From the NCBI GenBank assembly GCA_001508595.1, contig LGHA01000007.1:1-18461 (forward strand): 18,461 nt of DNA. The letters run 5' to 3'. Below, one piece after another: positions 2,979 through 18,461 of this stretch. Numbering within the stretch: position 1 is the first letter of the stretch; each line of letters opens with the position of its first letter. Origin of the DNA: Anaerolineaceae bacterium 46_22 (GTDB lineage Bacteria > Chloroflexota > Anaerolineae > Anaerolineales > Anaerolineaceae). The notes under the pieces are model-generated. The model searched no databases and was not told where the DNA came from. It worked only from the letters and a program-made list of their open reading frames with translations. Position numbers and translations under genes: made by a program.

Positions 2979-2992
2979 TTACTTTTTTACAA

Positions 2993-3015
2993 AATAAATC
3001 CAATGTGGATTTATT
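2993..3015 (+). repeat. Perfect 9-bp inverted repeat between HTH and GNAT genes
   Basis: AATAAATCC and GGATTTATT form a perfect stem around a 5-nt loop (AATGT), starting 15 nt after the HTH gene stop. The stem is AT-rich and has no T-tract on its 3' side, so it is a poor intrinsic terminator. It may be a weak transcript-end hairpin or an operator in front of the GNAT gene. Confidence 0.45.
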
Positions 3016-3034
3016 AATGACATAAAGGTTTCTA

Positions 3035-3904: not shown

Positions 3905-4000
3905 TCAAAATTATTTTCCCTGATTTTTAAGAAACGATTTACAATTAGACTTCAATAAAAATCCAAAATAATTTTCACACCAAAATTACTGAGGGTGACG

Positions 4001-4666
4001 ATGACAAGCAACCAAAACAAACGCGAATTACTACGCCAAAAAAGAAAAGAACAAAAGCGTCGGAAAATTTATACGACGGCAATCATCATAGTCGCTGTGC
4101 TGGCAGTTATTGGCTTATTAGCTTTCTTGCCAAAATTGCTTTCTAAACCCGCCAATTACGATTCCAGCCAGGGTTTTTCCCTCGGAGACCCAAATGCGCC
4201 TGTAAAGGTCGTTACGTTCTCAAGTTATACTTGCGGATACTGCAAAATATTCTCAGAAAGTATGGAGAAAGATTTTATCGAAGATTATGTTGATACTGGA
4301 AAAGTATATTATCGTTACGTGAACATGGCTAACACCAGTGAAGAGTCTATAAACGCTGCAGAAGCGTCCCATTGTGCCGCAGATCAGAACAAATTTTTTG
4401 AATATAAAGGGTTTCTTTATACCTATTCAAGTGCTGCAGAGGGATTTTCTTTAGAAAATCTTATCCGGTACGCAAAATCAGCGCGGCTTGATGCTGAAGC
4501 ATTCGAAGCTTGCATGCTTAGCGACCAATATTCGAAAGCTCATATCGATGATCGTAACTATGCCCAATCCAATGGCGTGACGGCAACACCGACTTTCCTG
4601 GTGAATGACCAGCTGGTTTACAGCAATGAATTGATCACCACTGTTGAAGATCTTTTATCAAATTAA
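4001..4666 (+). CDS. Membrane-anchored DsbA-like thioredoxin-fold protein
   Basis: A 221-residue protein. A very basic N-terminus (residues 8-22) and one transmembrane helix (about 24-44) place the rest outside the membrane. The thioredoxin fold carries a CGYC redox motif (Cys78, Cys81) and the cis-proline loop TATPTFLVN near the C-terminus, as in DsbA and Thioredoxin_4 proteins. It probably oxidises or isomerises disulfides in exported proteins. Two further cysteines (in SHCAADQ and EACMLSD) resemble the extra pair common in this subgroup. I chose the ATG at 4001 rather than the in-frame GTG at 3995 because GAGGG (3991-3995) lies 5 nt before the ATG and overlaps the GTG. A possible -10 (TACAAT, 3940-3945) lies upstream with a weak -35. 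The gene converges on the DUF554 gene. Confidence 0.91.
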   Translation: MTSNQNKRELLRQKRKEQKRRKIYTTAIIIVAVLAVIGLLAFLPKLLSKPANYDSSQGFSLGDPNAPVKVVTFSSYTCGYCKIFSESMEKDFIEDYVDTGKVYYRYVNMANTSEESINAAEASHCAADQNKFFEYKGFLYTYSSAAEGFSLENLIRYAKSARLDAEAFEACMLSDQYSKAHIDDRNYAQSNGVTATPTFLVNDQLVYSNELITTVEDLLSN

Positions 4667-4706
4667 GAAAGATCACATCTCATTGGTCTGAGAACACACA
4701 ATAGAA

Positions 4707-5423
4707 TTAAAAACCCCCAAAAAATCGTTCAATGATGAACACGATCAATGGTGTAACAAATAATGCTGGAAGGAAACTGCCCGTTCTGATTTTCTTGATC
4801 GTTAAAAGGCTGCTTAAGGCAATAGCCATCAAAATTAAGCCGCCGACTGCAGTCATCTCTGTCATCATTCCAGCCGAAAAATACTGACTGAAAAAACCCG
4901 ATAACAAACTGATCAAACCCTGGTAAATAAGTATGGACAAGGCTGAAAAAGCGACGCCAATCCCAAGTGTAGAGGCAAAAGCGATCGAGGCAAATCCGTC
5001 CAATATTGCTTTTATGGTCAGCATTTCATAATTTCCGGTTAATCCATCTTGAATAGACCCGAGGATCGCAATTGGACCAATCACGAAAACCAGAGAGGCA
5101 GTGACAAAACCCTCCACAAAACGCCTCTGTGAAGCATTTTCCTGGTCACTCTTCATAACTGCATTTCTCAGGGTAATCCCGATTCTTTCTAGGCCCTCCT
5201 CAATTTTCCACCATTCACCCAGCATAGCCCCAATTAACAATCCTCCTAGGGGCACAAGTGCATTTTGTGTGTCAATAAAGGAGATTAAGCCGTAACCTAG
5301 GGTAAATAAACCCAACCCAGCAACTATTGTTTCGCGCAATCTTTGTGATAATCGGCCGCCAATTAATACCCCAATTACGGAGCCAACCAGAATTGTCCCT
5401 ACATTGATAAAAGTGCCAATCAC
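4707..5423 (-). CDS. DUF554 family multi-pass membrane protein
   Basis: A 238-residue hydrophobic protein with about seven membrane segments. It matches the DUF554 (YdfK/YqgA) pattern: an N-terminal GTFINVGTILVGSVIGVLIG, the FTLGYGLI segment, GGLLIGAMLGEW, the ASLVFVIGPIAILGSIQDGL block and a C-terminal glycine-rich helix pair. The family is conserved and widespread, and its molecular function is unknown; a transport role is often supposed without proof. The GTG start lies 3 nt after the stop of the adenosyltransferase gene, with AGGGG 8 nt upstream, so the two genes are surely co-translated. No intrinsic terminator with a T-tract was seen in the 40 nt between this gene and the converging DsbA-like gene. 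Confidence 0.92.
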   Translation of the reverse strand: MIGTFINVGTILVGSVIGVLIGGRLSQRLRETIVAGLGLFTLGYGLISFIDTQNALVPLGGLLIGAMLGEWWKIEEGLERIGITLRNAVMKSDQENASQRRFVEGFVTASLVFVIGPIAILGSIQDGLTGNYEMLTIKAILDGFASIAFASTLGIGVAFSALSILIYQGLISLLSGFFSQYFSAGMMTEMTAVGGLILMAIALSSLLTIKKIRTGSFLPALFVTPLIVFIIERFFGGF

Positions 5424-5426
5424 GAC

Positions 5427-5975
5427 CTATGCCCCTTTTACCAATCGAACACCAGGACCAGATAAAGATGCTTCGTAAACCTCAAGAATAAACAATAATG
5501 AGGATAAGCGGTTCAAGTAAGAAATCAGGATTTCCTTAGTGATTTCCTTTGCTTCAAATAAAGCAATTGCTTTGCGCTCTGCTCGTCGAACAATTGTACG
5601 GGCAAGGCTCAATGCCCCGCTTGATGGGTTTTCACCAGGGATGATAAATTCTCGCTGTAAATCGACAAGGCTTTCGACTGCCGCAATTTTTTCTTCAAGC
5701 CACTGAATTTCGTATTCACTGATCTTATCAAAACGGTCGCTGACATCCGGTGAAGCAGACAGCTCAGACATCAAAAAATATAGCTGTTTTTGAATCTCTA
5801 ACAAGATATCTTTTGTGTTCTGCCCAAGAGAAATCGACCTTGCAAATCCTATCGCAGCATTAGCTTCATCAACACTGCCAACAGCGTCGATTCGCAATGA
5901 GTTTTTAGAAATCCGCCCTTCTCCTAAAAACCCGGTATTCCCTGTATCCCCTTTTCCAGTGAAAAATGAAGCCAT
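5427..5975 (-). CDS. pduO: PduO-type cob(I)alamin adenosyltransferase
   Basis: A 182-residue enzyme that transfers the 5'-deoxyadenosyl group of ATP to cob(I)alamin to make adenosylcobalamin. Family marks are the N-terminal ATP loop TGKGDTGNTGFLG, RIDAVGSVDEANAAIGFARS, the FIIPGENPSSGALSLARTIV helix with RRAER, and the closing YLNRLSSLLFIL. It is the MMAB/PduO trimer type, not the CobA/CobO P-loop type. The open frame extends to a GTG at 5996 that overlaps the upstream gene. The ATG at 5975 is preferred because AGGGATGG lies just upstream and MASFFTGKGDTG begins at the usual distance from the ATP loop. It is read between the substrate-binding protein and DUF554. No other cobalamin gene is visible in the window. 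Confidence 0.92.
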   Translation of the reverse strand: MASFFTGKGDTGNTGFLGEGRISKNSLRIDAVGSVDEANAAIGFARSISLGQNTKDILLEIQKQLYFLMSELSASPDVSDRFDKISEYEIQWLEEKIAAVESLVDLQREFIIPGENPSSGALSLARTIVRRAERKAIALFEAKEITKEILISYLNRLSSLLFILEVYEASLSGPGVRLVKGA

Positions 5976-5985
5976 TAATCCATCC

Positions 5986-7689
5986 CTACTCAACACTGTC
6001 AGTTGCTTCTATGTTATTTTCGCCATTCATATCCACACCAGACAGAATGTACCACTCATGAACGTTGTTGAAACGGTCACTGGGTTCAAACAGCGGTCCC
6101 AGTTTGATGCCATTGATATCTTCCGTGACTGCATACGTATAAACAGGATAAAAAAGCGGCAAGGATGGCAGTTCGCGCATGAACAAAACCTGGAAATTTC
6201 GATATAAACGTTCTCGTTCACCAATATCAGACGTCATACGAGCCTGCTCTAAAAATTCACTTGCCGAACGGTTATCCCATTCCGCATAATTTTGGCCTGA
6301 TTGAATCTGTGCCTGTCCCCAAAAGGGATAGGGGTCCGGGTCGGGTGACCGTGTGAAATTGATGTCAACCAGGGCAGTTTCATAATTCCTCAATGAAAGA
6401 TCCTCTAATATATTCTCATACGGCTTAGATTCCAATGTAACATTTACACCCAGCTCTTCCCAATCAGCCTGGATTTGCTCTGCAATCTGCGTGTGTTCTA
6501 CCGTATCAGGATGCATTAAAGTCAAAGAAATTTCAAGATCCGTTTCACTTCGATATACTTCAGCCTCTTCGTCAAAGGTTACACCTGTCGATTCAAACAA
6601 TCGTTTTGCTTCGACCAAATTAAAAGGCACTTTTTCCAGATCATTATAATGTGCCCAGGTGCCTGGCAGAATTGGCCCATTCGCCTGAACGGCTTGTCCA
6701 TTGAATACTTGTTCAATAATTGCATCCCGATTGATTGCCGCCAGCAAAGCTCGCCTGAAATCAGGATTTTCAAGAAAACCTACTTCAGGATTGTTAAGAT
6801 TGAGGTAAGTCATCGTTAAAAGTGGTTCTCGGGTTGTATATACCGATAATTCCGGTTCAGACAGGATATCCGATAGAATGGATGAATGGACTTTTCCTAT
6901 GCCCTCCACTTCACCTTCCCGGTATGCAGTTAAAGCGTCCTGTGAATTCGGATAATAGCGAAAGATGAATTCATCCAAATAAGGGCGTTCAAGAAAATAA
7001 GCATCAAATGCTTCAAGGACGACACCTGCAATTTTTTCATTTTCAACAATCAGACGCTGAAAACGAAAAGGTCCTGTCCCCACTGGCGCAAGGTTATAGG
7101 GGTGATCCACCAATTCATTCATCTCAAGGCCGCCCAGGATGTGCTCTGGGAGGATGCCAAAACTCAAATAATCTAAGAATGGGGCAAAGGGTTCCGGTAA
7201 TAAAAATTGCAGCTGGATGTCGGAAAGCGCAACAACCTCAACCTCAGCCCAAAAATTTCGCAAATCCTCGGGAATTAAATTATGCTTACTTTGGAGCAGC
7301 CCGGTCGTATACAATACATCCTGACTGTTAAAAGGTTCACCATCATGCCAGTACACATCCGTTCGCAGGCTAAAATTGTAAACCGTGCCGTCTCTTGAAA
7401 CGCCCCAGGATTCAGCTAAATCACTTTGTGGAATACCCCTTGAGTCAAATTTCACCAGGCTGTTAAAAATTAGCTGATCAACATCTCGATCCGGTTCATT
7501 ATACAAATCCAAAAAGGGATTTAACCGCATAAACTCACCAATCAATGCCTCAGTATAAACACCGCCTGAAATTGGTGACGGGGTTGATTGGATTTCTTTC
7601 CCATCATCCATTTGCTGAATAATGAGCAATATTCCCACAATCAAGCCGGTTACAAGAACGATCAGTAGTTGCCAACGATATTTTTTCAT
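5986..7689 (-). CDS. Family 5 ABC-type substrate-binding protein (peptide/nickel type), membrane-anchored
   Basis: A 567-residue SBP_bac_5 protein. Residues 5-25 form an N-terminal hydrophobic helix with a basic start (MKKYRW) but no lipobox cysteine and no clear cleavage site, so it is likely held by an uncleaved anchor. A low-complexity linker (about 30-40) leads into the SBP fold. Family marks are LNPFLD, LIFNSLVKFD, DLAESWGVSRDGTVYNFSLR, the VYWHDGEPFNSQDVLYT signature, GTGPFRF, FRRALLAAINRDAII and a C-terminal LPSLPLFYPVYTYAV. Such proteins deliver oligopeptides or similar ligands to an ABC permease, but no permease or ATPase gene is adjacent, so it is an orphan here. The start lies only 12 nt after a hairpin and T-tract, and no Shine-Dalgarno sequence is seen. 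Confidence 0.9.
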   Translation of the reverse strand: MKKYRWQLLIVLVTGLIVGILLIIQQMDDGKEIQSTPSPISGGVYTEALIGEFMRLNPFLDLYNEPDRDVDQLIFNSLVKFDSRGIPQSDLAESWGVSRDGTVYNFSLRTDVYWHDGEPFNSQDVLYTTGLLQSKHNLIPEDLRNFWAEVEVVALSDIQLQFLLPEPFAPFLDYLSFGILPEHILGGLEMNELVDHPYNLAPVGTGPFRFQRLIVENEKIAGVVLEAFDAYFLERPYLDEFIFRYYPNSQDALTAYREGEVEGIGKVHSSILSDILSEPELSVYTTREPLLTMTYLNLNNPEVGFLENPDFRRALLAAINRDAIIEQVFNGQAVQANGPILPGTWAHYNDLEKVPFNLVEAKRLFESTGVTFDEEAEVYRSETDLEISLTLMHPDTVEHTQIAEQIQADWEELGVNVTLESKPYENILEDLSLRNYETALVDINFTRSPDPDPYPFWGQAQIQSGQNYAEWDNRSASEFLEQARMTSDIGERERLYRNFQVLFMRELPSLPLFYPVYTYAVTEDINGIKLGPLFEPSDRFNNVHEWYILSGVDMNGENNIEATDSVE

Positions 7690-7700
7690 ATGTTTAAGAT

Positions 7701-7730
7701 AAAAGGGGCAACCCTTTTGGCGAGTTGCCC
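7701..7730 (-). terminator. Intrinsic terminator behind secG, abutting the SBP start
   Basis: Read on the minus strand, GGGCAAC (7730-7724) pairs perfectly with GTTGCCC (7712-7706) around an 11-nt loop and is followed by CTTTTATCTT. It lies 52 nt after the secG stop. Because the SBP start codon is only 12 nt beyond it, read-through would be needed for SBP expression from the secG promoter, or else SBP has its own promoter inside this short gap. Confidence 0.68.
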
Positions 7731-7765
7731 GATAGTATTAAGTGAGATTTTTTTCGCCAGGGTGC

Positions 7766-7781
7766 TCCGAAAATTTTCGGA
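7766..7781. repeat. 16-bp perfect palindrome next to the secG stop
   Basis: TCCGAAAATTTTCGGA is a perfect 16-bp palindrome that begins directly after the secG stop codon on the minus strand. It has no T-tract on either side, so it is not an intrinsic terminator. It could be an operator for a dimeric regulator of the downstream SBP gene, or a short transcript hairpin. Confidence 0.5.
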
Positions 7782-8009
7782 TTACGCGCCAAACATGACT
7801 GTTAATATGGTTAACAAGAAAAATAAAACACTCAGTCCAATTGTCACCCAAAACAAAACTTTCTCAACGCCTCGACGCTGCGTATAAACGCCGCCCGTGT
7901 CGCCGCCGCCCGTTAATCCTCCCAATCCCACACCCTTACTTTGAAGGATAATGCTCGCTATTAAAGCGATTGAAGTTATAATTAATGCAACACCAAAATA
8001 ATTTGCCAC
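7782..8009 (-). CDS. secG: SecG, preprotein translocase subunit
   Basis: A 75-residue membrane protein with two hydrophobic helices (about residues 3-23 and 50-72). The polar loop between them carries the SecG hallmark, SIILQSKGVGLGGLTGGGD (compare 'LLQ..KG.GL...FGGG'). SecG supports SecYE/SecA protein export. The open frame runs up to 8045 and an ATG exists at 8033. The GTG at 8009 is chosen for three reasons: GGAGG sits 5 nt upstream, the resulting length is typical, and a strong promoter at 8035-8064 would start the RNA near 8028, downstream of the ATG. It is a single-gene unit ended by its own terminator. Confidence 0.92.
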   Translation of the reverse strand: MANYFGVALIITSIALIASIILQSKGVGLGGLTGGGDTGGVYTQRRGVEKVLFWVTIGLSVLFFLLTILTVMFGA

Positions 8010-8034
8010 TCGTGCCTCCTTTTTAACAGACATG

Positions 8035-8064
8035 ATTATACCCACAACCTGAAAATTACGTCAA
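8035..8064 (-). promoter_or_regulatory. Sigma-70-type promoter of secG
   Basis: On the minus strand, TTGACG (8064-8059) and TATAAT (8040-8035) are separated by 18 nt. The predicted RNA start near 8028 leaves a leader of about 19 nt containing GGAGG before the GTG at 8009. Confidence 0.65.
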
Positions 8065-8068
8065 CCCA

Positions 8069-9136
8069 ATGATTGAATCAAAATTTGCTTTACACATACA
8101 TACCACCTACTCTGACGGCCGCGGAACCCACAATGAACTCATCGATATTGCGAGAAAAGCTGGGCTTGATGGCATTATTACGACCGACCATAACATTTGG
8201 GTAGAGGGGCTCGATGGCTATCATGGCGATGGCAAAAACAAAGTGATGCTTCTTGTTGGCGAAGAGGTTCATGATAGAGACCTTGAACCACCCGGCAACC
8301 ACATGCTGATCTTAGGGCAGAATAAAGAACTTTCACCTTTTTCCGGCAATCCCCAAAGGTTAATTGACCAGGTTAATAATGGTAATGGACTGACTTTCCT
8401 TGCCCATCCCGTTGAAGATCCCCTGGAGCGGTTTAATGAAAAAGATTTTTCCTGGCGAAATTGGGACATTAAGGGTTTCACAGGAATCGAGCTGTGGAAC
8501 CAATTGAGTGAATTTAAAAGCGTTTCGCAGGATCTGAATTCTGCAGTTATTAATGCCCTTTTTCCGAAACGCATGTCCCTTGGCCCTCTTGAGAGAACCC
8601 TTAGTTTATGGGATAAACTTATCGCTGCACGTAACGAGCAAATTGTCGCAGTAGCCGGGGTTGATGCGCACCAATTAGAAAAGAATATTGGACCCTTTAC
8701 CCTCAAACTCTATCCTTATCTCCACCATTTCCAAAGCTTAAGAACTCATATTTTGACTGACGAACCTCTGAGTAAAAATTTTGCTGAAGCAAAAAACCAG
8801 ATTCTTTCAGCACTTCGTTATGGACATTGTTTTATTGGTTATGATCTCCCAGCAGCAACCGATGGCTTTCGCTTTACTGTTCACAACGATCAAGGCCAAT
8901 ATATTATGGGAGATGAGGTCAAAGTGACAGGTGGGTTGACTTTCCAGATCAGGCTTCCACAAAAGAACCTTTGCAGATTTTATAAAGATGGAAAATTAAT
9001 CAATGAATGGCAGGATCGTGACGTCTGCACCCACATGACGACAGAACCTGGCGTTTACCGCGTTGAATCCTTTATCCCTTACAAAGGTAAACAACGGGGA
9101 TGGATTTTTAGCAACCCAATCTATGCCTGGCTTTAA
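8069..9136 (+). CDS. PHP-domain metal-dependent phosphoesterase
   Basis: A 355-residue soluble protein. The N-terminal PHP metal site is clear: HIHTTYSDG (His9, His11, Asp16), TTDHN (Asp40, His41), GEEVH (about 64-68), a later FLAHPVEDP and the closing AGVDAHQL. These are the motif I-IV residues of trinuclear-metal PHP phosphoesterases of the TrpH/YciV kind, and unlike DNA polymerase X or C no other catalytic domain is attached. The last 100 residues form a beta-rich domain ([20 protein letters not shown] to the end) as in other stand-alone PHP proteins. The substrate is unknown; 3',5'-bisnucleotides or 5' ends of short oligonucleotides are known for relatives. No Shine-Dalgarno sequence precedes the ATG. 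The stop codon overlaps that of rtcB on the other strand. Confidence 0.89.
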
Positions 9137-10590
9137 CCTTTGATTACAACAAGGGGATGAAGCACAGCAACCTTTTTGGCAATCCCGGCACCAACAACGC
9201 TTTCCACAACCAGATCGACATCCTTATATGCCTGAGGCGCTTCCTCAGCAAGCCCAGCCATCGAGCCTGCACGAATTTCTATGCCCTCCTTTTCAAGGTG
9301 TTTTAGCAAATCTTCCCCCCACACTTCTCGTTTTGCCTGTGATCGGCTCATAACCCTGCCTGCGCCGTGGCATGAAGATCCAAAGGAACGCGCCATACTC
9401 AATTCCGTACCGGTGAGCACCCAGGATGCTGTCCCCATCGAACCTGGAACAAGAACAGGCTGACCGATCTCTGCATAATCATCGGGGATCCCCTCTGATC
9501 CTGGCCCAAACGCGCGAGTTGCGCCCTTTCGGTGAACGCACACAAGCTTTTCTTCCCCATTTACAACATGCTTCTCAAACTTGCCGATATTATGAGCAAT
9601 ATCATAAACTTGTTTGAGATGCCAGTCATCGACTTTTCCAGCCAAAACTTTTTCAAAGGCTTCTCTCAGTCGATTGGTAAGCAGTTGACGATTCAAAAAT
9701 GCGAAATTTGCTCCGCACCTCATTGCCCCTAAATAATCCTGCCCCTCCGATGACTGGATCGGTGCGCACACCAACTGTTTATCAGGCAAGCTGATCCCAT
9801 ACTTCCTGACAGCGTTTTGCAACTGCCTGACATAATCTGTGCAAATTTGATGACCAAAACCACGTGACCCTGTGTGGATTTGAGCTGCAATCTTGCCCGG
9901 GTATAATCCCATCACCTTTGCCGCTTCTTCGTCGAACACTTTTGCAACAATATCGACCTCAATAAAATGGTTTCCCCCGCCCAAAGTGCCAAGCTGCGTT
10001 CTTCCTCGAGACAAAGCCCTTTCGCTCAATTTGCTTGGATCTGCACCATCCAAACATCCATTGGCTTCGGTATGGAGGATATCCTCTTGAGTCGCATATC
10101 CCGCTGATTTAGCCCATTTTGCACCTTTGACACAGGCTTCAATCAGCTCATTTTTAGAAAGTGTCAAATCGCTGTCCACTCCCACCCCGCTTGGACAATA
10201 CTGGTCGATGGTCGTAGCCAAAATGCTCAAGTAGTCCTTGATTTCATCATAACTGAGCTTTGTTGATAACAAACGCACACCGCAATTGATATCATACCCA
10301 ATCCCACCCGGTGAAATGACACCATTCTCAACATCGGCGGCTGCAACACCGCCAATCGGGAACCCATATCCCTGGTGCATATCCGGCATCACCATCACTG
10401 CCCCGACCAAACCAGGTAATGTGCTGACATTTATCGCCTGAATAATGGATTTATCCCGAAAAGAATCCTGCAGAAGAGACTTCGAAGCAAAAATCCGCAC
10501 CGGGACGCGCATATCCGAACGAAAATCTGGTGAAATTTCCCACTCAAATTCCCAAATCTGAGTAAAGATATCAAAACTTATTTCGGTCAT
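9133..10590 (-). CDS. rtcB: RtcB, tRNA-splicing/RNA-repair ligase
   Basis: A 485-residue GTP- and Mn-dependent ligase that joins 2',3'-cyclic phosphate or 3'-phosphate RNA ends to 5'-OH ends. All active-site elements are present: DINCGVR (Asp100, Cys103), LGGGNHFIE (Asn207, His208), HTGSRGFGH (His239), DIAHNI (His333) and SCHGAGR, whose His408 should be the guanylylated residue. The spacing follows the archaeal enzyme, and [12 protein letters not shown] is intact. The length is full for the family. The ATG at 10590 is preferred over the ATG at 10596, because GGAG (10602-10599) is 8 nt from the former and only 2 nt from the latter. That GGAG overlaps the archease TAG stop, so the two genes are translationally coupled. 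No rtcA or rtcR is nearby. Confidence 0.97.
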
Positions 10591-10601
10591 TATCATAACT
10601 C

Positions 10602-11009
10602 CTATACATCAAAAGTAATCGTGGTCTCGCAACCTGTTTTTGTTTCAGTAATATCCAAATTATGGAAGGTGACAGCTTTTATGCTGCGCTGGTAAGATTC
10701 AATTTTATGGCCTATTGCAGAAACAACAAGAACATCCATCGAATTGAGCAAAGAAAAATTGTCGAAATAAATAGCTTTATCATCTATCATGAACAAAAGT
10801 TCATTTAAAAAGTCAACAAGCTGCATTTCCATACTACCCGGGTCAATTTCAAAGCTGACTTCCGTCTTCTGCCCATGTTTTCTTTTGATACCCATCAACG
10901 CATACATCCCCCTTGCAGATTGCTTGAGAAGGTCAAAAAAATCTTCACCCCATACCCTCAGGGCAACATCAGCGGTGTGCTCAACCTCTTCATAACCTGA
11001 TAAAATCAT
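10602..11009 (-). CDS. Archease, RtcB activator
   Basis: A 135-residue archease. The family signature is at the N-terminus ([20 protein letters not shown]), followed by the helix [13 protein letters not shown], the [18 protein letters not shown] segment and the C-terminal [11 protein letters not shown] strand. Archease helps guanylylate RtcB and allows multiple turnover, and its position directly before rtcB fits this well. The open frame extends to a TTG at 11060 that would overlap fhaA; the ATG at 11009 is far better, since the protein then starts just before the conserved strand. A -10 box lies only 10 nt before this ATG, so the mRNA would be nearly leaderless, and no Shine-Dalgarno sequence is present. 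Confidence 0.94.
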
Positions 11010-11013
11010 CTTG

Positions 11014-11027
11014 AGTATAATTATACT
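11014..11027. promoter_or_regulatory. Symmetrical divergent -10 element between archease and fhaA-like
   Basis: AGTATAATTATACT is a perfect 14-bp palindrome in the 30-nt gap between the two divergent starts. It contains TATAAT on each strand (11016-11021 on plus, 11025-11020 on minus). The -35 regions are weak on both sides. It probably drives the archease-rtcB operon leftward and the FHA/cell-wall operon rightward from overlapping sites. Confidence 0.5.
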
Positions 11028-11039
11028 GGATCGGTTCTT

Positions 11040-11804
11040 ATGAATAATAACCTTGAACAATTCGAAAGACGCTTGCGCCTCTTATTTGAAGAAAATCTCA
11101 TCAGGCTAATTCCTGGGATGCATGCACCTCGAAAACTTTTCGATGATTTGCTGGCGGCAATGCATGAAAATGCAATACCTGTATCAGAAGATAAGATTTT
11201 TGCTCCAGATGAATATAAAATTCATGTACCTGAGGAAGATCTGGATAATTGGATAACCCATCAAGACATTTTGAACGAAATGGCAGATTTCCTCCACCAA
11301 ACAGGATTATCAGAAGGTTTCAACTTTAGTTACCCACCAACGATCATTGTCCTTCCCCAGGAAAGATCGCAAAGCAAGGATTTTTACCTGGAATCCAGTA
11401 TCTCTCCTGCCAATCAAGTACTGCCAGACACTGCTGCTATTCCCAACAATGAGCGGCCAAACATTCAGGATGAAATCCCGGGTCGTGCTTTCCTTATTGT
11501 TGGAGGAAATGAAAACTTTTTACTTGAAAAATCAGTGATTGATATCGGTCGACACTCGGAGAATGATTTGATCCTGAATGAACCCCACGTATCAAGGCAC
11601 CACGCGCAGCTTCGGGCGATCAACAAACGTTATGTCATCTTTGATGTGGGTTCAACCGGCGGCCTATTTATCAATGGAAAGAAAATTTCTCAGGCGACTC
11701 TCCAACCCGGGGATGTCATTCGAATTGGTATGGTTAACCTGATTTTTGTACAGGATATCACCTCAGAAAATCCAACAACAGCGATAACCATCGAGGAAGA
11801 TTGA
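11040..11804 (+). CDS. FhaA-like protein: DUF3662 domain plus C-terminal FHA domain
   Basis: A 254-residue soluble protein. Residues 1-105 match the DUF3662/FhaA N-terminal domain (FERRLRLLFEENLIRLI, then VSEDKIFAPDEYKIHVPEED). A low-complexity linker (about 106-147) follows, and an FHA phosphothreonine-binding domain fills 148-240 with IGRHSENDLIL (Gly170, Arg171, His172) and VSRHHAQL (Ser185, Arg186, His188). The usual STNG loop reads STGG (205-208), so the conserved asparagine is replaced by glycine. In Actinobacteria FhaA recruits phosphorylated cell-wall factors such as the MviN pseudokinase. Here it opens an operon with fhaB-like, mtnP and a SEDS-PBP fusion. The ribosome-binding site is weak (GGATCGG, 5 nt upstream). 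Confidence 0.89.
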   Translation: MNNNLEQFERRLRLLFEENLIRLIPGMHAPRKLFDDLLAAMHENAIPVSEDKIFAPDEYKIHVPEEDLDNWITHQDILNEMADFLHQTGLSEGFNFSYPPTIIVLPQERSQSKDFYLESSISPANQVLPDTAAIPNNERPNIQDEIPGRAFLIVGGNENFLLEKSVIDIGRHSENDLILNEPHVSRHHAQLRAINKRYVIFDVGSTGGLFINGKKISQATLQPGDVIRIGMVNLIFVQDITSENPTTAITIEED

Positions 11805-11815
11805 GGCAATAATAA

Positions 11816-12256
11816 ATGAACGCGATATTGGTATTCGCCCTCCGCTTACTGCTCATATTATTGTCCTACACCTTTTTGGGATGGATAATTTATACCATCT
11901 ACATGGATCTGAAAAGAGAAAGCTCTTTGAAAGAGGAGAAAACCACATCTCCAATTGTTCTCTCAGTAAAAATCGACGATGAAGAAATAACAAAACGCTT
12001 CAGACAACCTGTAATTATCCTTGGAAGAGACCCATCCGCTGACTTTTTCTTAAATAACGAAACAATTTCACTCAGGCATTGCAAGGTGTTTTTCCGACAA
12101 AAACAATGGTGGGTAGAGGATCTTGAATCCACAAACGGGACGTATCTAAATCAAGGACAGGTTACAACTAGCACTATTTTGACAGATGGTGATAAATTAA
12201 CACTGGGAAAAGTAGACATCACAATTAGAATCAATCAAAATATCATACTGGAGTAA
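11816..12256 (+). CDS. FhaB-like membrane-anchored FHA domain protein
   Basis: A 146-residue protein. One transmembrane helix (about residues 5-29) is followed by a charged linker and a complete FHA domain (about 48-140). The phosphothreonine-binding residues are intact: LGRDPSADFFL (Gly70, Arg71), ISLRHCKV (Ser85, Arg87, His88) and ESTNGTYLN (Ser105, Asn107). This is the layout of FhaB (FipA) in the actinobacterial cell-division and cell-wall cluster, where it binds phosphorylated partners at the membrane. GAGG 9 nt upstream supports the start, 11 nt after the fhaA-like stop. No Ser/Thr kinase is present in the window to supply the phosphate. Confidence 0.88.
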   Translation: MNAILVFALRLLLILLSYTFLGWIIYTIYMDLKRESSLKEEKTTSPIVLSVKIDDEEITKRFRQPVIILGRDPSADFFLNNETISLRHCKVFFRQKQWWVEDLESTNGTYLNQGQVTTSTILTDGDKLTLGKVDITIRINQNIILE

Positions 12257-12259
12257 GTC

Positions 12260-13126
12260 ATGATCAAAACCCCTATCTTGGCTGTCATTGGCGGATCAGG
12301 TTTGTATAAATTTAAAAATCTGACAGATATCGAAACAATTGAAATGGATACCCCTTTTGGAAAACCGAGCGCCCCGATCACTCTGGGTAATTTGATGGGG
12401 AAACCCGTTGCCTTCCTCGCACGGCATGGGATAGGACATACATACGATCCCAGCGGAGTCCCCTACCGGGCGAATATTTTTGCCCTGAAAAAGCTGGGAG
12501 TCAAGCGGATTGTCAGTGTCAGCGCATGTGGATCATTGCGCGAGGCTTATTCACCTGGCACCATCATCATTCCAAATCAAATTTTTGACTTTACACACAA
12601 ACGAGAAAGAAGTTTCTTTGGCGAGGGGCTGGTTGCACATGTTAGTGTGGCGGATCCTTTTTGTGAAAACCTTTCAAACATTCTTGAGAACGCGGTTAAA
12701 CAAACTGAAGCAAGATTTCATCGCGGTGGTACTTATATCACCATTGAAGGGCCAAGGTTCTCTACGAAAGGGGAATCCAACCTTTACAGGCAATGGGGAA
12801 TTGACATCATCGGGATGACAGCCTCTCCTGAAGCTTTCCTTGCCAGAGAAGCAGAAATTTGCTACACAACCATGGCGCATGTAACGGATTATGATGTTTG
12901 GCACGTCAGTGAAGAGACCGTAACCGTGGATATGGTCATTCGAACCTTATCTAAAAATATCAGTCTTGCCCAGGAAGCGATCAAAAATATGGTTGCTATG
13001 ATTGATGAAAGTGCTGATTGTGATTGCCAACATGCGCTGCAAAATGCAATCATCACCAACCGTGATCATATCGATCCTGTCAAGCAAGCCCAAATTTCTC
13101 TTCTGATTGAAAAATACCTGGATTAA
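12260..13126 (+). CDS. mtnP: S-methyl-5'-thioadenosine phosphorylase
   Basis: A 288-residue trimeric-type nucleoside phosphorylase. It cleaves 5'-methylthioadenosine with phosphate to adenine and 5-methylthioribose-1-phosphate in methionine salvage. Evidence is VIGGSGLY at residues 9-16, the phosphate-site LARHGIGH, the SVSACGSL strand, TYITIEGPRFSTKGES, the substrate-site GMTASPEAFLAREAEICY and ATDYD-like VTDYDVWH. The MT and the TDYDxW motifs favour MTA over the purine nucleoside phosphorylase type, which has GMSTVPE and TNK. Length is normal for the family. GGAG overlaps the fhaB stop and sits 6 nt from the ATG, and the next gene starts 2 nt after the stop, so it is firmly inside the cell-wall operon. 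No other methionine-salvage gene is near. Confidence 0.94.
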   Translation: MIKTPILAVIGGSGLYKFKNLTDIETIEMDTPFGKPSAPITLGNLMGKPVAFLARHGIGHTYDPSGVPYRANIFALKKLGVKRIVSVSACGSLREAYSPGTIIIPNQIFDFTHKRERSFFGEGLVAHVSVADPFCENLSNILENAVKQTEARFHRGGTYITIEGPRFSTKGESNLYRQWGIDIIGMTASPEAFLAREAEICYTTMAHVTDYDVWHVSEETVTVDMVIRTLSKNISLAQEAIKNMVAMIDESADCDCQHALQNAIITNRDHIDPVKQAQISLLIEKYLD

Positions 13127-13128
13127 TT

Positions 13129-15777
13129 GTGATCAACATCTTTCCATATGGGGATAAAAGTTCCCCTAACGATCAAACTCAGGGCAAATTAATATCCCTT
13201 GCGGCAATCATTATTATCACATTTGCCTTGATCTTATCCATATCACCTATGATCCGTTACCATGGAGCGGCAGAAGGATACCGCTTTGACCACTGGTTGG
13301 GCGTAGGCGTTTGGATAGCTGCTTTTGGGCTGCTGCATTATCAGTCATCGCGAAAATTACCCCAAAGAGATCCGTATATTCTTCCAATAGTTTCTCTTTT
13401 ATCTGGTATCGGATTAATGACCATCTGGCGACTGTATCCGAATTTAGGACTCCGTCAAACGATTTGGATAGCTTTAGCTTCAGCATTTGTTTTTTTAGGC
13501 TTAAATTTCCCCATTTTTTTAGATTATTTGCGTCGTTATAAATATATTTGGCTAATTTCAGGTTTATTTCTGACCGGTTTAACCATCTTTATGGGAACCA
13601 ATCCCTTGGGCAACGGACCCACTTTATGGTTGGAATTCCTAGGTATCCACTTTCAGCCTTCAGAGGTTTTAAAAATACTCCTGATTGCTTTTCTGGCGAG
13701 TTTCTTAACAGATCGACAGGTCTTTGTTTACAAGAAATTCGACATCTTGTTACCCACCTTGTTTGTTATTGTTTCTGCACTGGCATTGCTTATCGTTCAA
13801 AGGGATTTAGGAACTGCCACAATTTTTCTGCTGATCTACATTGGCATGATCTTCTCCTCAAAGGGGAATAAAATTCTCTTTTATGGCGCACTAATTTTAG
13901 CAGTGATCCTTATTGGATTTGCTTATTTTTATATCGACATCGTCAAGCTGCGTTTTGATGCCTGGTTGAACCCGTTTAGCGACCCTTCAGGCGCATCTTA
14001 TCAAATACTTCAATCTTTGATTGCAATTGCAGAAGGCAGTACCTTTGGAACAGGACCCGGTTTGGGCAGCCCAGGTTTAATCCCCGTGGCAGTTTCCGAC
14101 TTTATCTTTGCATCTATAACCGAAGAATTGGGTTTGTTTGGTGCTGGCTTGATTATTTCACTCTATATCATTTTGCTTTATCGAGCGATTAAGCTCGTTA
14201 AAATAACCCAGCATTCCTTTGACCGCTACTTAGCATTGGGCCTAACCTTCTATTTTGGTGTTCAAACCATTTTGATCATTGGCGGCAACATCGGACTCCT
14301 CCCCTTGACGGGTGTTACCCTGCCTTTTGTGTCCTACGGTGGGTCATCACTGCTTGTGTCATTTATTGCAATCCTTTTTCTTCTAATCATCAGCAATCGG
14401 ATTCCTGCTAACCCACCAATTGAAATGGTTCACCACCGTCGGACTATTCGTTTGAGCAGCTTTCTCATTGCAATTCTCGGACTGGAAATGCTTGTCACCA
14501 GTCTGGCATCTTTCTGGTTCATGCCGAGTCTGGTCAATCGACCTGAAAATCCCCGCTGGATTGTTCATGACCGCTTCAGCGAACGGGGAAAGATCCTTGA
14601 TCGGGACAACCAAATCATTATTACAAATATTGGCCAAACAGGGTCCTTCCAAAGAGAAAGCAATCACATCCCCCTTTATCCAGTTATTGGCTATACGAAT
14701 CCAACTTATGGCCAAACCGGGCTTGAAGAAAGTATGTTTGACTATTTACGCGGTTATGAAACTTATCCAGCGATGACCCTCTTCTGGCAGGATCTGCTTT
14801 ACAACCAACCCCCTGCCGGATCTGATATCAGGCTAACCATTGATCTTGAATTACAAAAATTTGCGGATTCATTGCTCGGTGAAGAACCAGGAGCAATTGT
14901 AATGATGAACGCCCAATCGGGTGAAGTATTAACAATGGCATCCCATCCTTATTTTGATGCAAAAAACCTGGAAGAAAATTGGCAAGACCTGATTAACAAT
15001 GAAGAAGCACCGCTTGTCAATCGGGCAACCCAGGGTTTATATCCACCAGGATCCACATTGTTTCCCTTTGTTGCATCAACCCAAATTGAGCTTATTCAGC
15101 AAAATGAGAATCCTTTTTCCATCATGAATGGTTCCCCACAATTACAAACCTGTGCGACCTTTCCCGGTTCTGACCTGACCTGGCAAGCTGCCATGACACA
15201 TGGCTGCCAGGACGTTCAGGCAAAACTTGCAGAATTTACGGATGTCACTCAGCTTATTGAATTGTTCCAAAATCTGAATTTCTTCTCTCCACCTGACATC
15301 CGGCTGAATGTCGCCCAGGCTGATTCCCCAGACTATGACACACCTGAAGCGCTTTACACAGGTCAAGCATTCAATCTTACACCGCTTCAATTGGCTTTAG
15401 CTGCCAGTGCTTTGACCAATCAGGGTATACTGCCGGCGCCAAGGCTTGTTAACGCTTATCAAGATTCAAATGGGAACTGGATCACCCTTTCAAAATTAGG
15501 ACAAAATTCTCAGGCATTGGATGCCGATGTAGCTTTCTGGATCACCAGCCTGCTGGAAACGCCTGATTCCCCGCACTGGCAGATCACATCAAACGAAGCA
15601 ACCCAGGATGAGCAAGTGATCACCTGGTTTATCGCCGGCACCACTGCAGATTGGCGGGGTCAACCGACAACAGTCGTTGTTCTTCTCGAGAAAGACGCAC
15701 CTATTCTCGCCGAGGAAATCGGGTTATCACTCTTAGAACAATCCACACAAATCTCATTGACCAATGGGCAGCAGTAA
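13129..15777 (+). CDS. SEDS glycan polymerase (RodA/FtsW) fused to a degenerate PbpA-type transpeptidase
   Basis: An 882-residue fusion. Residues about 20-425 are a SEDS peptidoglycan glycosyltransferase with some 12 membrane helices. Intact motifs are FQPSEVLKI (175-183), QRDLGTATIF (224-233), NPFSDPSGASYQILQS (281-296), VSDFIFASITEELGLFG (322-338) and TGVTLPFVSYGGSSLL (394-409). A further helix (about 443-465) leads to a class B PBP part: RGKILDRDN (486-494), a short pedestal with YPVIGYTNPTYGQTGLE as in actinobacterial PbpA, then the transpeptidase fold (about 565-865). Its catalytic motifs are lost. SxxK reads STLF (642-645), SxN is replaced by GCQ (692-694), and no KTG precedes TWFIAG (832-837). 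It is thus probably an active polymerase with a non-catalytic transpeptidase. The GTG start, 2 nt after mtnP, has only a weak GGA upstream. Confidence 0.94.
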   Translation: MINIFPYGDKSSPNDQTQGKLISLAAIIIITFALILSISPMIRYHGAAEGYRFDHWLGVGVWIAAFGLLHYQSSRKLPQRDPYILPIVSLLSGIGLMTIWRLYPNLGLRQTIWIALASAFVFLGLNFPIFLDYLRRYKYIWLISGLFLTGLTIFMGTNPLGNGPTLWLEFLGIHFQPSEVLKILLIAFLASFLTDRQVFVYKKFDILLPTLFVIVSALALLIVQRDLGTATIFLLIYIGMIFSSKGNKILFYGALILAVILIGFAYFYIDIVKLRFDAWLNPFSDPSGASYQILQSLIAIAEGSTFGTGPGLGSPGLIPVAVSDFIFASITEELGLFGAGLIISLYIILLYRAIKLVKITQHSFDRYLALGLTFYFGVQTILIIGGNIGLLPLTGVTLPFVSYGGSSLLVSFIAILFLLIISNRIPANPPIEMVHHRRTIRLSSFLIAILGLEMLVTSLASFWFMPSLVNRPENPRWIVHDRFSERGKILDRDNQIIITNIGQTGSFQRESNHIPLYPVIGYTNPTYGQTGLEESMFDYLRGYETYPAMTLFWQDLLYNQPPAGSDIRLTIDLELQKFADSLLGEEPGAIVMMNAQSGEVLTMASHPYFDAKNLEENWQDLINNEEAPLVNRATQGLYPPGSTLFPFVASTQIELIQQNENPFSIMNGSPQLQTCATFPGSDLTWQAAMTHGCQDVQAKLAEFTDVTQLIELFQNLNFFSPPDIRLNVAQADSPDYDTPEALYTGQAFNLTPLQLALAASALTNQGILPAPRLVNAYQDSNGNWITLSKLGQNSQALDADVAFWITSLLETPDSPHWQITSNEATQDEQVITWFIAGTTADWRGQPTTVVVLLEKDAPILAEEIGLSLLEQSTQISLTNGQQ

Positions 15778-15813
15778 CAAAAAAGGCTGTCCTTTTTTAG
15801 AAAAGAACAGCCT
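15778..15813 (-). terminator. Bidirectional intrinsic terminator between the SEDS-PBP gene and tyrS
   Basis: AGGCTGT (15784-15790) pairs with ACAGCCT (15807-15813). After one mismatch the stem continues for five pairs around a TTAG loop. On the minus strand a run of six T (15783-15778) follows, so it is a strong terminator for tyrS, whose stop is 21 nt before it. On the plus strand the tract after the stem is poorer (CCCTGTTTATA), but the hairpin starts only 6 nt after the fusion gene's stop codon. Confidence 0.8.
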
Positions 15814-15834
15814 CCCTGTTTATACTTTGTGTAT

Positions 15835-17049
15835 TTATTTTTCAACCCTTAAAAACCGCCGTTTGCCTACCTGAACAATAACAGGGAGGCTCAACACCAA
15901 ATAGGGGTCAGTAACTGCTTCCCCATCGATCTTTACGCCATTCTGGTCAATCAACCGGCGAACCTGGGATTTACTGCGGACCAGGCCGCTGTCCACCAGC
16001 ACGTCCAGTAAGATCGGCTCTCCAGAAGGCTTAAACACTTCCATATCATCCGGGGTGTCCTTTTTTTGAAACAGGGTGATGAAATGTTCTTGCGCTTTTT
16101 CTGCCTTTTCGTCATCAAAGAATGCTGAGGTAATTTCCTTCGCCAACTCTAATTTGGCGTCCCTGGGATGCAATTCCCCCTTTTCAATGGCCGATTCAAA
16201 TTTGTCAATCTTATCAACGGTCCAGCGTGTGACAAGACGTGCATAACTTGACATTGCTTTATCGGGCACACTCATCACCTTACCAAACATATCCTCGGGT
16301 GTTGTGTTCAGAGGGATATGGTTCCCAAGGGATTTGCTCATCTTCACTTCGCCATCGGTGCCGGGCAAAATTCCCAGGATAATCCCAATGTTCGGTTTTT
16401 TACCATAATATGACATGATCTTTCGGGCGGCAGTCATGATGTTAAACATCTGGTCTGTGCCGCCCACCTGCACATCTGCATCCAGTGCGTAGGCATCATA
16501 ACCCTGCATGATCGCATAAAACAATTCATGAAAATAAACCGCTTCGTCATTTTCAAAGCGCTTTTTAAAGTTTTCTCTCGTAAAAAATTGCTGCAGTGTA
16601 AAATTCGATGCCAAGTGGATCAAGTCCTTTAATTTTAAATCTGAGAGCCATTCAGCGTTGTAACGCATCTCTGTCTTATCGCGATCAAGAATACGAAATG
16701 CCTGCTCGGCATAGGTTTCAGCGTTCACCTGTGCTTCTTTAGGAGAGAGCTGTGCCCTCAGCTTATCTTTGTCAGAGGGATCGCCGATCAGGGCAGTATA
16801 TGTCCCCACAACAAAAATGACATGGTGGCCCAGTTCCTGGAATTGGCGTAGTTTGCGCATTGTAACGGTATGCCCAATATGTAAATCTGATGTTCTGGGA
16901 TCGTATCCGCAGTAAACCCTCAGCGGTCTTCCAGAGCTTTCTGATTCAACCAGGCGGTCCCTGAGCTCTTTTCTCATGGACTCGTGCATCGCTTGGTCAC
17001 CATATGCAGTTCCTCGCATCAAATAAGTTACCTGTTGATCAATATTCAT
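15835..17049 (-). CDS. tyrS: Tyrosyl-tRNA synthetase
   Basis: A 404-residue class I aminoacyl-tRNA synthetase that charges tRNA-Tyr. The Rossmann fold has the HIGH signature in SDLHIGHTVTMRKLRQF and the KMSKS loop as KMSKSLGNHIP. Tyrosine-site elements include YCGYDPRTSDLHIGH and QVGGTDQMFN. The C-terminus (about 340-404) is an S4 RNA-binding domain (LVDSGLVRSKSQVRRLIDQN). The HIGHTVTM and KLRQFQELGH context is of the TyrZ-like (TyrRS-II) branch rather than the E. coli TyrS branch. The ATG at 17049 is chosen over an in-frame codon at 17079 because AAGGAG lies 6 nt upstream. A hairpin and T-tract lie 33-65 nt before the start and may control expression. Confidence 0.97.
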   Translation of the reverse strand: MNIDQQVTYLMRGTAYGDQAMHESMRKELRDRLVESESSGRPLRVYCGYDPRTSDLHIGHTVTMRKLRQFQELGHHVIFVVGTYTALIGDPSDKDKLRAQLSPKEAQVNAETYAEQAFRILDRDKTEMRYNAEWLSDLKLKDLIHLASNFTLQQFFTRENFKKRFENDEAVYFHELFYAIMQGYDAYALDADVQVGGTDQMFNIMTAARKIMSYYGKKPNIGIILGILPGTDGEVKMSKSLGNHIPLNTTPEDMFGKVMSVPDKAMSSYARLVTRWTVDKIDKFESAIEKGELHPRDAKLELAKEITSAFFDDEKAEKAQEHFITLFQKKDTPDDMEVFKPSGEPILLDVLVDSGLVRSKSQVRRLIDQNGVKIDGEAVTDPYLVLSLPVIVQVGKRRFLRVEK

Positions 17050-17082
17050 ACTTATCTCCTTAAAATTTCCCGGTACCAATAC

Positions 17083-17114
17083 AAAAGAAAACGCGCCCCG
17101 TCACACAAGGCGCG
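17083..17114 (-). terminator. Terminator-like hairpin in the tyrS leader (possible attenuator)
   Basis: Read on the minus strand, CGCGCC (17114-17109) pairs with GGCGCG (17097-17092), extended outward by one G-U and one A-U pair, and is followed by TTTTCTTTT. It ends 33 nt before the tyrS ATG. Just upstream, CCGTC (17131-17127) can pair with GACGG (17102-17098). This alternative stem would trap the left arm of the terminator. No T-box consensus or tyrosine specifier loop was found. Confidence 0.62.
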
Positions 17115-17188
17115 CTATCGGCCAAGGACGGTTTAACATCAATCATGCATAATAATTAGAATCCAACATAAATGCATCCACAGCCATA

Positions 17189-17194
17189 ATTATA
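17189..17194 (-). promoter_or_regulatory. Candidate -10 box for tyrS
   Basis: TATAAT on the minus strand, 140 nt before the tyrS ATG and 75 nt before the leader hairpin. The -35 region is weak (no TTGACA-like hexamer at 16-18 nt). If used, it gives a leader of about 130 nt that contains the hairpin. Confidence 0.32.
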
Positions 17195-17270
17195 ACGAAT
17201 AATTTAAGGATTTGCATCAATCTCAAGTAGAAATAACTCGAATTTCAGCGACGAAACTCATAATTTGAAC

Positions 17271-17753
17271 CTAAACACCTTTATCAACCAAATCAAAGTT
17301 CGCTGTTCGATCATCAAGAGATGCAAAAAATCGTTCTTCTTTTTTTCCCAGGTCCATAAAAGTCCGAGAGAAATGAAAAAGAATGGATGCGTAATCCCAC
17401 ATCTGATGGAAGATAAATTTTGATGTCGTTCACAAAACCCAAAACTTTGATTTTTGCTTCTCCCTCTGGAAAAATTGCATTAGAAAAATCCAATCTCGTT
17501 TCTCCAACAAACCACCAGAATTCATGCCTTCTTGCTTCCCAACTTCCTGTTTTATGGATATCCCCCAAAACCGACATCCGAACCTCCGCACCAGGACCCG
17601 CCATTGATTACGAAATATTATCAGGAGTCCGATCCTAATTAATATTAATGGTCCGATAAATCCGCTGAAATTAATTTCGAATATGACATCTACTAATGAA
17701 AATACGCCCAGGGTAATCAATACAATTCCTATGATGATCTGCAACTTTTTCAT
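17271..17753 (-). pseudogene. LiaF-like membrane protein gene broken by two compensating frameshifts
   Basis: Frame 1 (from ATG 17753) gives two membrane helices typical of LiaI/LiaF-like N-termini (IIIGIVLITLGVFSLVDVIF, then FIGPLILIRIGLLIIF). After the residues FRNQ the family sequence continues in another frame (MAGPGAEVRMSVLGDIHKTG, then WFVGETRLDFSNAIFPEGEA, VNDIKIYLPSDVG). That frame ends early, but skipping one A in a run of seven (17340-17346) restores the first frame and gives GKKEERFFASLDDRTANF to a TAG at 17271. The joined product would be about 160 residues. LiaF-like proteins act in envelope-stress sensing. The first break (about 17590-17610) is not in a homopolymer; the second is. 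AAGG 7 nt before the ATG is a good ribosome-binding site. It is either a decaying gene or one with sequence errors. Confidence 0.75.
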
Positions 17754-17813
17754 CTCATCGCCTTTTCTTAGGCATGTTTTAAGTTTATCTATTTCATCTT
17801 CTTTGTAGAAATA

Positions 17814-17819
17814 ATTATA
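17814..17819 (-). promoter_or_regulatory. Candidate -10 box for the LiaF-like gene
   Basis: TATAAT on the minus strand, 60 nt before the ATG at 17753. A TTAGAT hexamer 17 nt upstream is a weak -35. An additional TATAAT on the plus strand (17833-17838) lies close by without a good partner. Confidence 0.33.
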
Positions 17820-17845
17820 AGGATGACGTGATTATAATCTAAGGA

Positions 17846-17917
17846 GGGCATTTCCCCGCAGCTTGCTGCGAGAATGTTCCACAAAATCCGTCCCGAAGGG
17901 TGAAATCCTGTAATGCC
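17846..17917. repeat. Structured intergenic element, repeat-like (REP/MITE-type remnant?)
   Basis: Terminal inverted repeats GGCATT (17847-17852) and AATGCC (17912-17917) enclose two hairpins. The first is CGCAG-CTTG-CTGCG (17857-17870), the second CCC-GAA-GGG (17892-17900). The direct repeat AAATCC flanks the second. The element is more GC-rich than its AT-rich surroundings and has no open frame. It resembles short palindromic units that recur in bacterial genomes, but only one copy is in the window. No target-site duplication is clear. Confidence 0.4.
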
Positions 17918-17929
17918 GCGAAATTTAAA

Positions 17930-17958
17930 TTAACATGCAAATTCAAAACTGATATAAT
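17930..17958 (+). promoter_or_regulatory. Sigma-70-type promoter of the HNH gene
   Basis: TTAACA (17930-17935) and TATAAT (17953-17958) with an ideal 17-nt spacer. The predicted RNA start near 17965 leaves a leader of roughly 9 nt before the ATG at 17974. Confidence 0.68.
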
Positions 17959-17973
17959 CATTATGGTGAAATT

Positions 17974-18461
17974 ATGAACGATCCTGTTCTTGTGTTGAAT
18001 GCAAATTTTCAACCAATCAACATCACATCGACCTACCATGCGATAAATATGGTCCTCTCTGAAAGGGCAACTCTGGTCATGAATGGACGAGGGGTGATTC
18101 GATCCGTATCGCAAACTTTCCCGCTGCCATCAGTCATCCGCCTGACCCGCATGATTAAACGCCCCAGGCCAATCGTCAAGCTGACAAGGAAAGAAATCTT
18201 TCGAAGGGACAATTTCACATGTCAATACTGCGGTCGCCAAGTTAGCAACCTGACAATCGACCATGTCACTCCACGCCGGCTCGGCGGCGAAACAGATTGG
18301 GATAATGTGGTCGCCGCCTGCCCCCGTTGCAACCATCTGAAGGGCGGCATGACTCCTGCACAATCCGGCATGTACCCTATGAAACAGCCTAAACATCCCC
18401 CTAATACTGCCAAATATTTATTCGGCAAACACCTCAATCAATGTGAGGAATGGGAAGATTT
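17974..18461 (+). CDS. HNH endonuclease family protein (3' end outside window)
   Basis: The frame is open to the last base and gives 162 residues without a stop, close to the usual full length. The N-terminus VLVLNANFQPINITSTYHAI is typical of the stand-alone HNH family found next to housekeeping genes. The nuclease core follows: LTRKEIFRRDNFTCQYCG (first zinc CxxC), LTIDHVTPRRLGG (DH of the HNH motif), then NVVAACPRCNHLKGG (second CxxC and the Asn). The four cysteines form the structural zinc site, and the His and Asn residues the beta-beta-alpha-metal active site. Such proteins are metal-dependent nicking or cutting nucleases of unknown role. They are not restriction-type in this context, because no methylase is adjacent. 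GGTGA 4 nt before the ATG is a fair ribosome-binding site. Confidence 0.91.
   Translation, partial: MNDPVLVLNANFQPINITSTYHAINMVLSERATLVMNGRGVIRSVSQTFPLPSVIRLTRMIKRPRPIVKLTRKEIFRRDNFTCQYCGRQVSNLTIDHVTPRRLGGETDWDNVVAACPRCNHLKGGMTPAQSGMYPMKQPKHPPNTAKYLFGKHLNQCEEWED

Follow-up and report, generated by a model that had tools for sequence, protein, structure and literature searches.

Can a SEDS glycan polymerase be served by a class B penicillin-binding protein (bPBP) that has lost its own catalytic motifs? A bPBP is thought to serve its SEDS polymerase in two indispensable ways, by cross-linking and by allosteric activation, and these two roles are difficult to tell apart where the partner is catalytic. 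The question is raised by a stretch of 18,461 nucleotides from Anaerolineaceae bacterium 46_22 (contig LGHA01000007.1, positions 1–18,461, forward strand; hereafter the window). It contains an 882-codon open frame on the + strand (13129–15777), which begins with GTG 2 bases past the stop codon of the preceding phosphorylase gene and encodes a SEDS domain followed by a PBP without transpeptidase motifs. The features of the locus are as follows.

11040..11804, + strand: FhaA-like gene (FhaA_N and FHA domain; Pfam), which stays beside the module in relatives
11816..12256, + strand: FhaB/FipA-like FHA protein (Pfam), kept in relatives
12260..13126, + strand: MTAP-like nucleoside phosphorylase (PF01048) separating FhaB from the fusion, position conserved
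13129..15777, + strand: SEDS polymerase/pseudo-transpeptidase fusion gene, 882 aa (AlphaFold2 model, pLDDT 87.2, pTM 0.80)
13450..14397, + strand: SEDS (FtsW/RodA) glycan polymerase domain, residues 108–423 (PF01098, E 5e-68)
14098..14100, + strand: catalytic Asp of the SEDS domain, D324 (in VSDFIF), which the 8tj3_B alignment pairs with E. coli RodA D262
14437..14514, + strand: helix 437–462 between the SEDS and PBP parts, probably transmembrane (DSSP on the predicted model)
14584..14826, + strand: PBP pedestal/PbpA dimerisation domain, residues 486–566 (PF21922, E 5e-7)
14827..15774, + strand: pseudo-transpeptidase domain, residues 567–882 (PF00905 match at 588–815, E 4e-17)
15052..15063, + strand: SxxK site, reads STLF, without the catalytic Lys (alignment, motif scan)
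15151..15153, + strand: Cys675, matched by a Cys in the alignment to M. tuberculosis PbpA and invariant in 112/112 close homologues
15202..15210, + strand: SxN site, reads GCQ, with C693 invariant in close homologues (alignment, motif scan)
15574..15600, + strand: strand 816–824, the expected KTG carrier, reads HWQITSNEA, without KTG or KSG (predicted model)

A first-pass annotation, made from the DNA letters, had described the N-terminal half as a SEDS polymerase that keeps the motifs checked and the C-terminal half as a bPBP with a PbpA-like pedestal, and both descriptions are borne out. The PF01098 match of the protein exceeds the gathering score, with a SEDS fold, and the hallmark residues of the domain are present, including D324. 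The C-terminal half matches PF21922 and PF00905 and aligns with PbpA; with its N-terminal helix, PF21922 pedestal and PF00905 transpeptidase fold, the architecture of a PbpA-type bPBP is complete (Pfam, AlphaFold2 model). Both members of a cognate SEDS-bPBP pair lie on one chain in the window, and FhaA and FhaB adjoin the SEDS and PbpA parts, as expected of an Fha-linked RodA-PbpA locus.

The three motifs that define an active D,D-transpeptidase (SxxK, SxN and KTG) are not found in this protein. As the annotation had stated, Lys is changed to Phe at codon 15061–15063 within STLF, GCQ replaces SxN, and KTG is absent: a scan of the entire 882-aa protein found neither KTG nor KSG, and past residue 440 it found neither S-x-x-K nor S-x-N, so that no displaced SxxK or KTG exists elsewhere in the transpeptidase domain. 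Two alignments confirm where the annotation placed the lost motifs: one with live PBPs of the same genome (SVFK/SLN/KTG and SVYK/SCN/KTG), in which four loci without a fusion frame (L016, L020, L033, L037) are not included, and a profile-based one with PbpA of M. tuberculosis (3un7). Despite the loss, the AlphaFold2 model predicts that the transpeptidase fold is retained. Transpeptidation and penicillin binding by the fusion would thus not be expected from its sequence.

Of 7996 candidates scored against residues 440–882, 1037 were homologues; the best 120 of these were analysed together with the query. The Lys position of SxxK was occupied by F, L, M, A, I or S in all 121 sequences. The Ser of SxxK, which the window retains, was present in only 19 of them, so the Lys loss reported for the window is general and the kept Ser is not. 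The Ser of SxN occurred in none of the 121, with Gly in its place in 116, whereas C693, W833 and Q754 were invariant throughout (W833 and Q754 in 121/121). Because these homologues were ranked by likeness to the window's own dead half, the best 120 are uninformative on live relatives.

The orthologue survey across the Anaerolineae class therefore used the whole protein as query against 298 genomes, with a best match of about E 2e-54 or lower in 120 of them by a hand count. One hundred loci were fetched, and SEDS and PBP frames were both readable in 89, where they were either fused or adjacent. The same motif losses recurred: 77 of the 89 were dead, that is, without the catalytic motifs (45 fused and 32 as separate genes), and the Lys was missing from every one of these 77. 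All 10 live loci consisted of separate genes. Two loci were counted apart, namely L246, which ends before KTG but has SxxK and SxN intact, and L231, an odd, unscored row from a live family. By family code, transferred by hand from the genome list of this survey, 20 families were dead, six were live and none contained both states. Separate genes show the loss as commonly as do the fusions, which span several families. Left out of these counts were 11 of the 100 loci, whose stretch lacked either a SEDS or a PBP frame, among them L240 (PBP present, SEDS absent) and five loci whose stretch ends less than 0.8 kb past the SEDS gene (L039, L049, L224, L227 and L237). A KTG picked up by regular expression in L063 falls in the pedestal and not in the transpeptidase, and this locus was counted as dead. 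In L231 (genome G006) the PBP partner has a KTG, but its SxxK-to-SxN stretch is swapped for a GELEE-type repeat, while the near sister L235 is intact; this is either an assembly artefact or a second independent loss.

The dead domains differ in how much of the head they keep. The SxN position was empty in 31 of the 77 dead class rows, which indicates that the head was trimmed in several families and that part of it is expendable. In the listed rows of the f2 family the PBP part is ~60 residues shorter and both Cys are lost. Pro occupies the position of the SxN Asn in 43 of the 77.

The best 80 loci from a scan of GTDB contigs provided a second survey of named genomes, which is not to be added to the first since the genomes partly overlap. 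Twenty-nine of these loci were dead, all with Chloroflexota-type titles (21 fused, four separate, and four without SEDS in the stretch). The 51 intact loci were mostly from Firmicutes and Actinomycetota, plus one Thiorhodococcus; L100, L120 and Tepidiforma L122 were the intact loci with a Chloroflexota title, and in all 48 loci without such a title SxxK, SxN and KTG were intact. Only one of the 51 was fused: L140, from a Lachnospiraceae MAG, is a separate, live natural SEDS-PBP fusion with SxxK, SCN and KTG intact. The shortened type of dead fusion was also seen in L082, whose SEDS clusters with those of the f2 loci in the tree and whose title, Herpetosiphon sp., may be a misnomer. Thermanaerothrix daxensis GNS-1 (L089), a named strain with a record not marked as a MAG, carries the dead module.

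How often catalysis was lost was assessed on trees built from the SEDS domain alone, without use of the PBP sequence. On all four SEDS trees the dead state required a single change. The most careful tree comprised 69 rows, with near-copies among the dead rows as well as L140 and L130 left out; it recovered the dead clade with UFBoot 93 and SH-aLRT 92, and a single change was obtained in 95% of 200 bootstrap trees. L140 and L130 were included in two quick trees, in the second of which the window represents its congener L059 (counted in the class census). In the last quick tree the dead clade had a support of 94 with no live rows inside, and the live class members branch below it. The node is well but not maximally supported, and the loss of catalysis looks single and ancient. 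In contrast, the fusion state required eight and seven changes on the two quick trees, one change being the outgroup L140; such counts cannot separate fusion from fission. Because the live class relatives all have separate genes, it is most parsimonious that catalysis disappeared before the genes were joined, and we infer fusion rather than fission on each branch.

These trees also make a prediction for genomes in which the two genes are unlinked. No PBP was found at E 10 in L216, L217, L223, L238 and L245, each with at least 2.7 kb past the SEDS gene; in the last quick tree the first three lie inside the dead clade and the last two outside. Matches of PBP frames obtained by tblastn in such loci overlap the SEDS gene and stem from stop-to-stop frames over the neighbouring SEDS, and were not counted. 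Elsewhere in the genome, the PbpA-type PBP was dead in G177 (L223, L257) and G124 (L217, L258), whose SEDS belong to the dead clade, and had SxxK, SxN and KTG intact in G153 and G033, whose SEDS lie outside it. The state of the unlinked partner was thus as predicted from the SEDS tree in all four genomes, and the dead PBP of G177 and G124 has been kept even when neither fused nor adjacent. For G241 (73% complete, dead-clade SEDS L216) the genome search found no PbpA-type PBP; this reflects either missing data or a partnerless polymerase, the latter of which would oppose an obligate activator.

Selection on the fusion was estimated by comparison with L059. The dN/dS ratios were 0.075 for SEDS, 0.046 for the pedestal and 0.096 for the transpeptidase domain, compared with 0.112 for MTAP, 0.140 for FhaB and 0.210 for FhaA; ratios against L060 are uninformative, because synonymous sites are saturated. 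Judged from these ratios, the fusion is under purifying selection, its transpeptidase domain included. Together with the class-wide sharing of the losses, the low ratio of the latter domain upholds the earlier proposal of a selected non-catalytic domain rather than random decay. The polymerase residues are preserved in the dead clade: D324 is D in 76 of 77 rows (the other being a gap) and in 23/23 live rows, Q176, P177, E179, D226 and G405 are likewise kept in 76 of 77 with a gap in the remaining row, and K182 is retained in 61 rows and replaced by R in 15. Constraint within the PBP has shifted, as seen from the conservation of the transpeptidase domain minus that of the pedestal (10 rows drawn 200 times). 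This difference was +0.26 bit in 49 live named loci of the best 80, with 0/200 draws negative, and +0.15 bit in the 10 live class rows, versus −0.22 bit in the dead clade with 200/200 draws negative. The KTG strand scored 3.42 bits in the 49 live named loci and 2.19 bits in the dead clade.

The order of genes around the module, with FhaA, FhaB and the MTAP-like gene upstream of the fusion and archease and RtcB divergent beyond, is kept in near relatives. In mycobacteria, the Fha-linked RodA-PbpA cluster comes with a linked Ser/Thr kinase and phosphatase. Fha-like genes also occur near live SEDS-PbpA pairs of Firmicutes and Actinomycetota among the best 80 named loci, suggesting that the locus is old and the dead PBP a derived state. 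The complete genome G253 (L252, L253), from the window's own family, yielded just two SEDS matches and lacked a full FhaA match, and the module was absent; this suggests loss as a unit, and the module is therefore dispensable there. The frames of archease (10602–11060, − strand) and FhaA (11040–11804, + strand) overlap at their divergent starts, and archease-RtcB adjoins FhaA in several relatives (L059–L062 and L068), linking RNA ligation with wall genes. In many class loci, some of them with a live PBP (L056, L057), the SEDS gene is preceded by an MTAP-like phosphorylase.

Other transpeptidases are encoded in these genomes. In the window's genome (G000, 71% complete), PF00905 matched five times and PF01098 three times; these matches probably represent, besides the fusion, a PBP beside a RodA-like SEDS, an FtsI-sized PBP, an FtsW-like SEDS and two class A-sized loci. 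Three of its four other PBP loci have all motifs, SxxK included, and the fourth is truncated by the contig end. PF00905 matched five to seven times in each of ten further genomes, a count that covers the dead fusion wherever it scores. The motif screen was passed by 32 of 34 PBP loci, the failures being L004 (contig end) and L165 of G253, and YkuD matches were present in 13/13 genomes, with two to 10 in each.

We consider it probable that this module is a SEDS-bPBP synthase turned polymerase-only, whose PBP is a pseudo-transpeptidase kept to hold and switch on the polymerase. The SEDS half, judged by its conserved residues, would still polymerise lipid II, and the membrane helix, pedestal and folded head of the PBP would hold and activate it. 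Catalysis would have been lost once, in the ancestor of a large Anaerolineae-type clade in which SEDS and PBP were still encoded separately near FhaA/FhaB; several descendant lineages would later have fused the two genes, giving a fixed 1:1 complex. Cross-linking of the product would be delegated to the other D,D- and L,D-transpeptidases of the cell. That the catalytic residues appear to have been lost once, long ago, and that the partner is fused in many lineages suggests survival as activator or scaffold; in the fusions such activation would occur in cis. The purely activating role proposed by the first-pass annotation goes beyond what sequence evidence can carry, and fits published cases of dead bPBPs that still support their SEDS partner.

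Known systems share parts of this picture. The RodA-PbpA pair of Actinobacteria (M. tuberculosis PbpA, PDB 3lo7/3un7) and its Fha-linked relatives in Firmicutes resemble the window in PBP fold, PF21922 pedestal, SEDS adjacency and, at many loci, nearby FhaA/FhaB-type genes, but the 48 named loci without a Chloroflexota title all have intact motifs, whereas the window has one chain and three lost motifs. A single chain is shared with the natural SEDS-PBP fusions mentioned in PMC10449877 and with the engineered RodA-PBP2 fusion of PMC6207328; the latter fusion is reported to bind bocillin, and a PBP2 variant stimulates RodA in the purified fusion, an effect blocked by RodA D262A. Division of B. 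subtilis is reported to be supported by dead PBP2B S309A if PBP3 provides catalysis (PMC5656894), and C. difficile SpoVD S311A acts through, and needs, SpoVE (PMC12713402). In both cases a dead bPBP still serves a SEDS partner or division complex, like the role proposed here; they are, however, engineered point mutants of live enzymes, whereas in the present clade evolution has removed the motifs throughout. The titles and abstract openings searched revealed no naturally occurring clade of dead bPBPs, and the searches found no papers on a SEDS and class B PBP fusion in Chloroflexi or on FtsW/PBP in Anaerolineae peptidoglycan synthesis, most subscription papers lying outside this scope. The text of PMC8406291 does not contain the words fusion, fused, Chloroflexi, inactive or pseudo.

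A folded head under selection would be superfluous for an activator that works through its pedestal only, and counts against the activator reading to that extent; stability, activation or sensing may underlie its retention. The last of these leads to the alternative that the pseudo-transpeptidase head is a sensor or ligand-binding domain that recognises stem peptide, the wall or another protein and gates the polymerase, perhaps together with FhaA/FhaB. The retained fold and its purifying selection, the invariant W833 and Q754 in the query and best 120 homologues, the frequent Pro at the SxN Asn position and the FHA genes that remain linked at many loci are all compatible with such a role. We nevertheless regard it as rather unlikely, as the active-site segments do not stand out, the KTG strand being the least conserved of five regions compared, and the SxN segment is absent from two-fifths of the dead rows (31/77).

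Ongoing decay, with the transpeptidase as a functionless relic carried by the polymerase, would account for the same missing segment, for conservation that is relaxed compared with live relatives, and for the module gone from G253 and the partner not found in G241. It is much harder to reconcile with a transpeptidase dN/dS near that of SEDS and below that of MTAP, with frames open in 20 families, and with dead PBPs that persist as separate genes, even away from the SEDS gene in G177 and G124, and we judge it improbable.

Still less credible is a non-canonical active site in which other residues, such as a conserved Cys, perform peptide-bond chemistry. C675 and C693 are invariant in 112/112 close homologues, but both align with Cys of live M. 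tuberculosis PbpA, C693 aligns with the Cys of SCN in 8 of the 10 live rows of the class, and its position is missing in the 31 trimmed rows. Since live PbpA and live class rows have the aligned Cys, the two look ancestral, and they may form a structural disulfide (C675–C693) in the fusion. A sequence error or misalignment concealing intact motifs can practically be dismissed, because the congeneric locus L059 (92% identical) and the 120 listed homologues likewise have no Lys, the identical loss extends to 121/121 sequences and 20 families, and the alignments to live PBPs and 3un7 and the motif scan, with no KTG or S-x-x-K in the domain, leave no room for a hidden motif.

A SEDS-bPBP synthase with a pseudo-transpeptidase throughout a large clade is real, conserved and unusual. 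Its wider interpretation is that of a clade-wide polymerase-only synthase, in which the pseudoenzyme PBP activates SEDS or reports the state of the wall via FHA proteins, and separate D,D- or L,D-transpeptidases finish the uncross-linked strands; in this full form we hold the proposal to be as apt to fail as to stand. Evolution seems to have split the two roles of the PBP, through one ancient loss with fold and pedestal kept, repeated fusion and trimming of the head. The clade offers a comparative data set for mapping the PBP surfaces that are important to the SEDS enzyme, and with Thermanaerothrix daxensis GNS-1 as a carrier the module may be testable in culture. At its pseudo-transpeptidase site the module should be blind to beta-lactams. 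If the proposal is true, polymerisation and cross-linking would have been uncoupled in nature, and this separation would have endured in 20 families or more.
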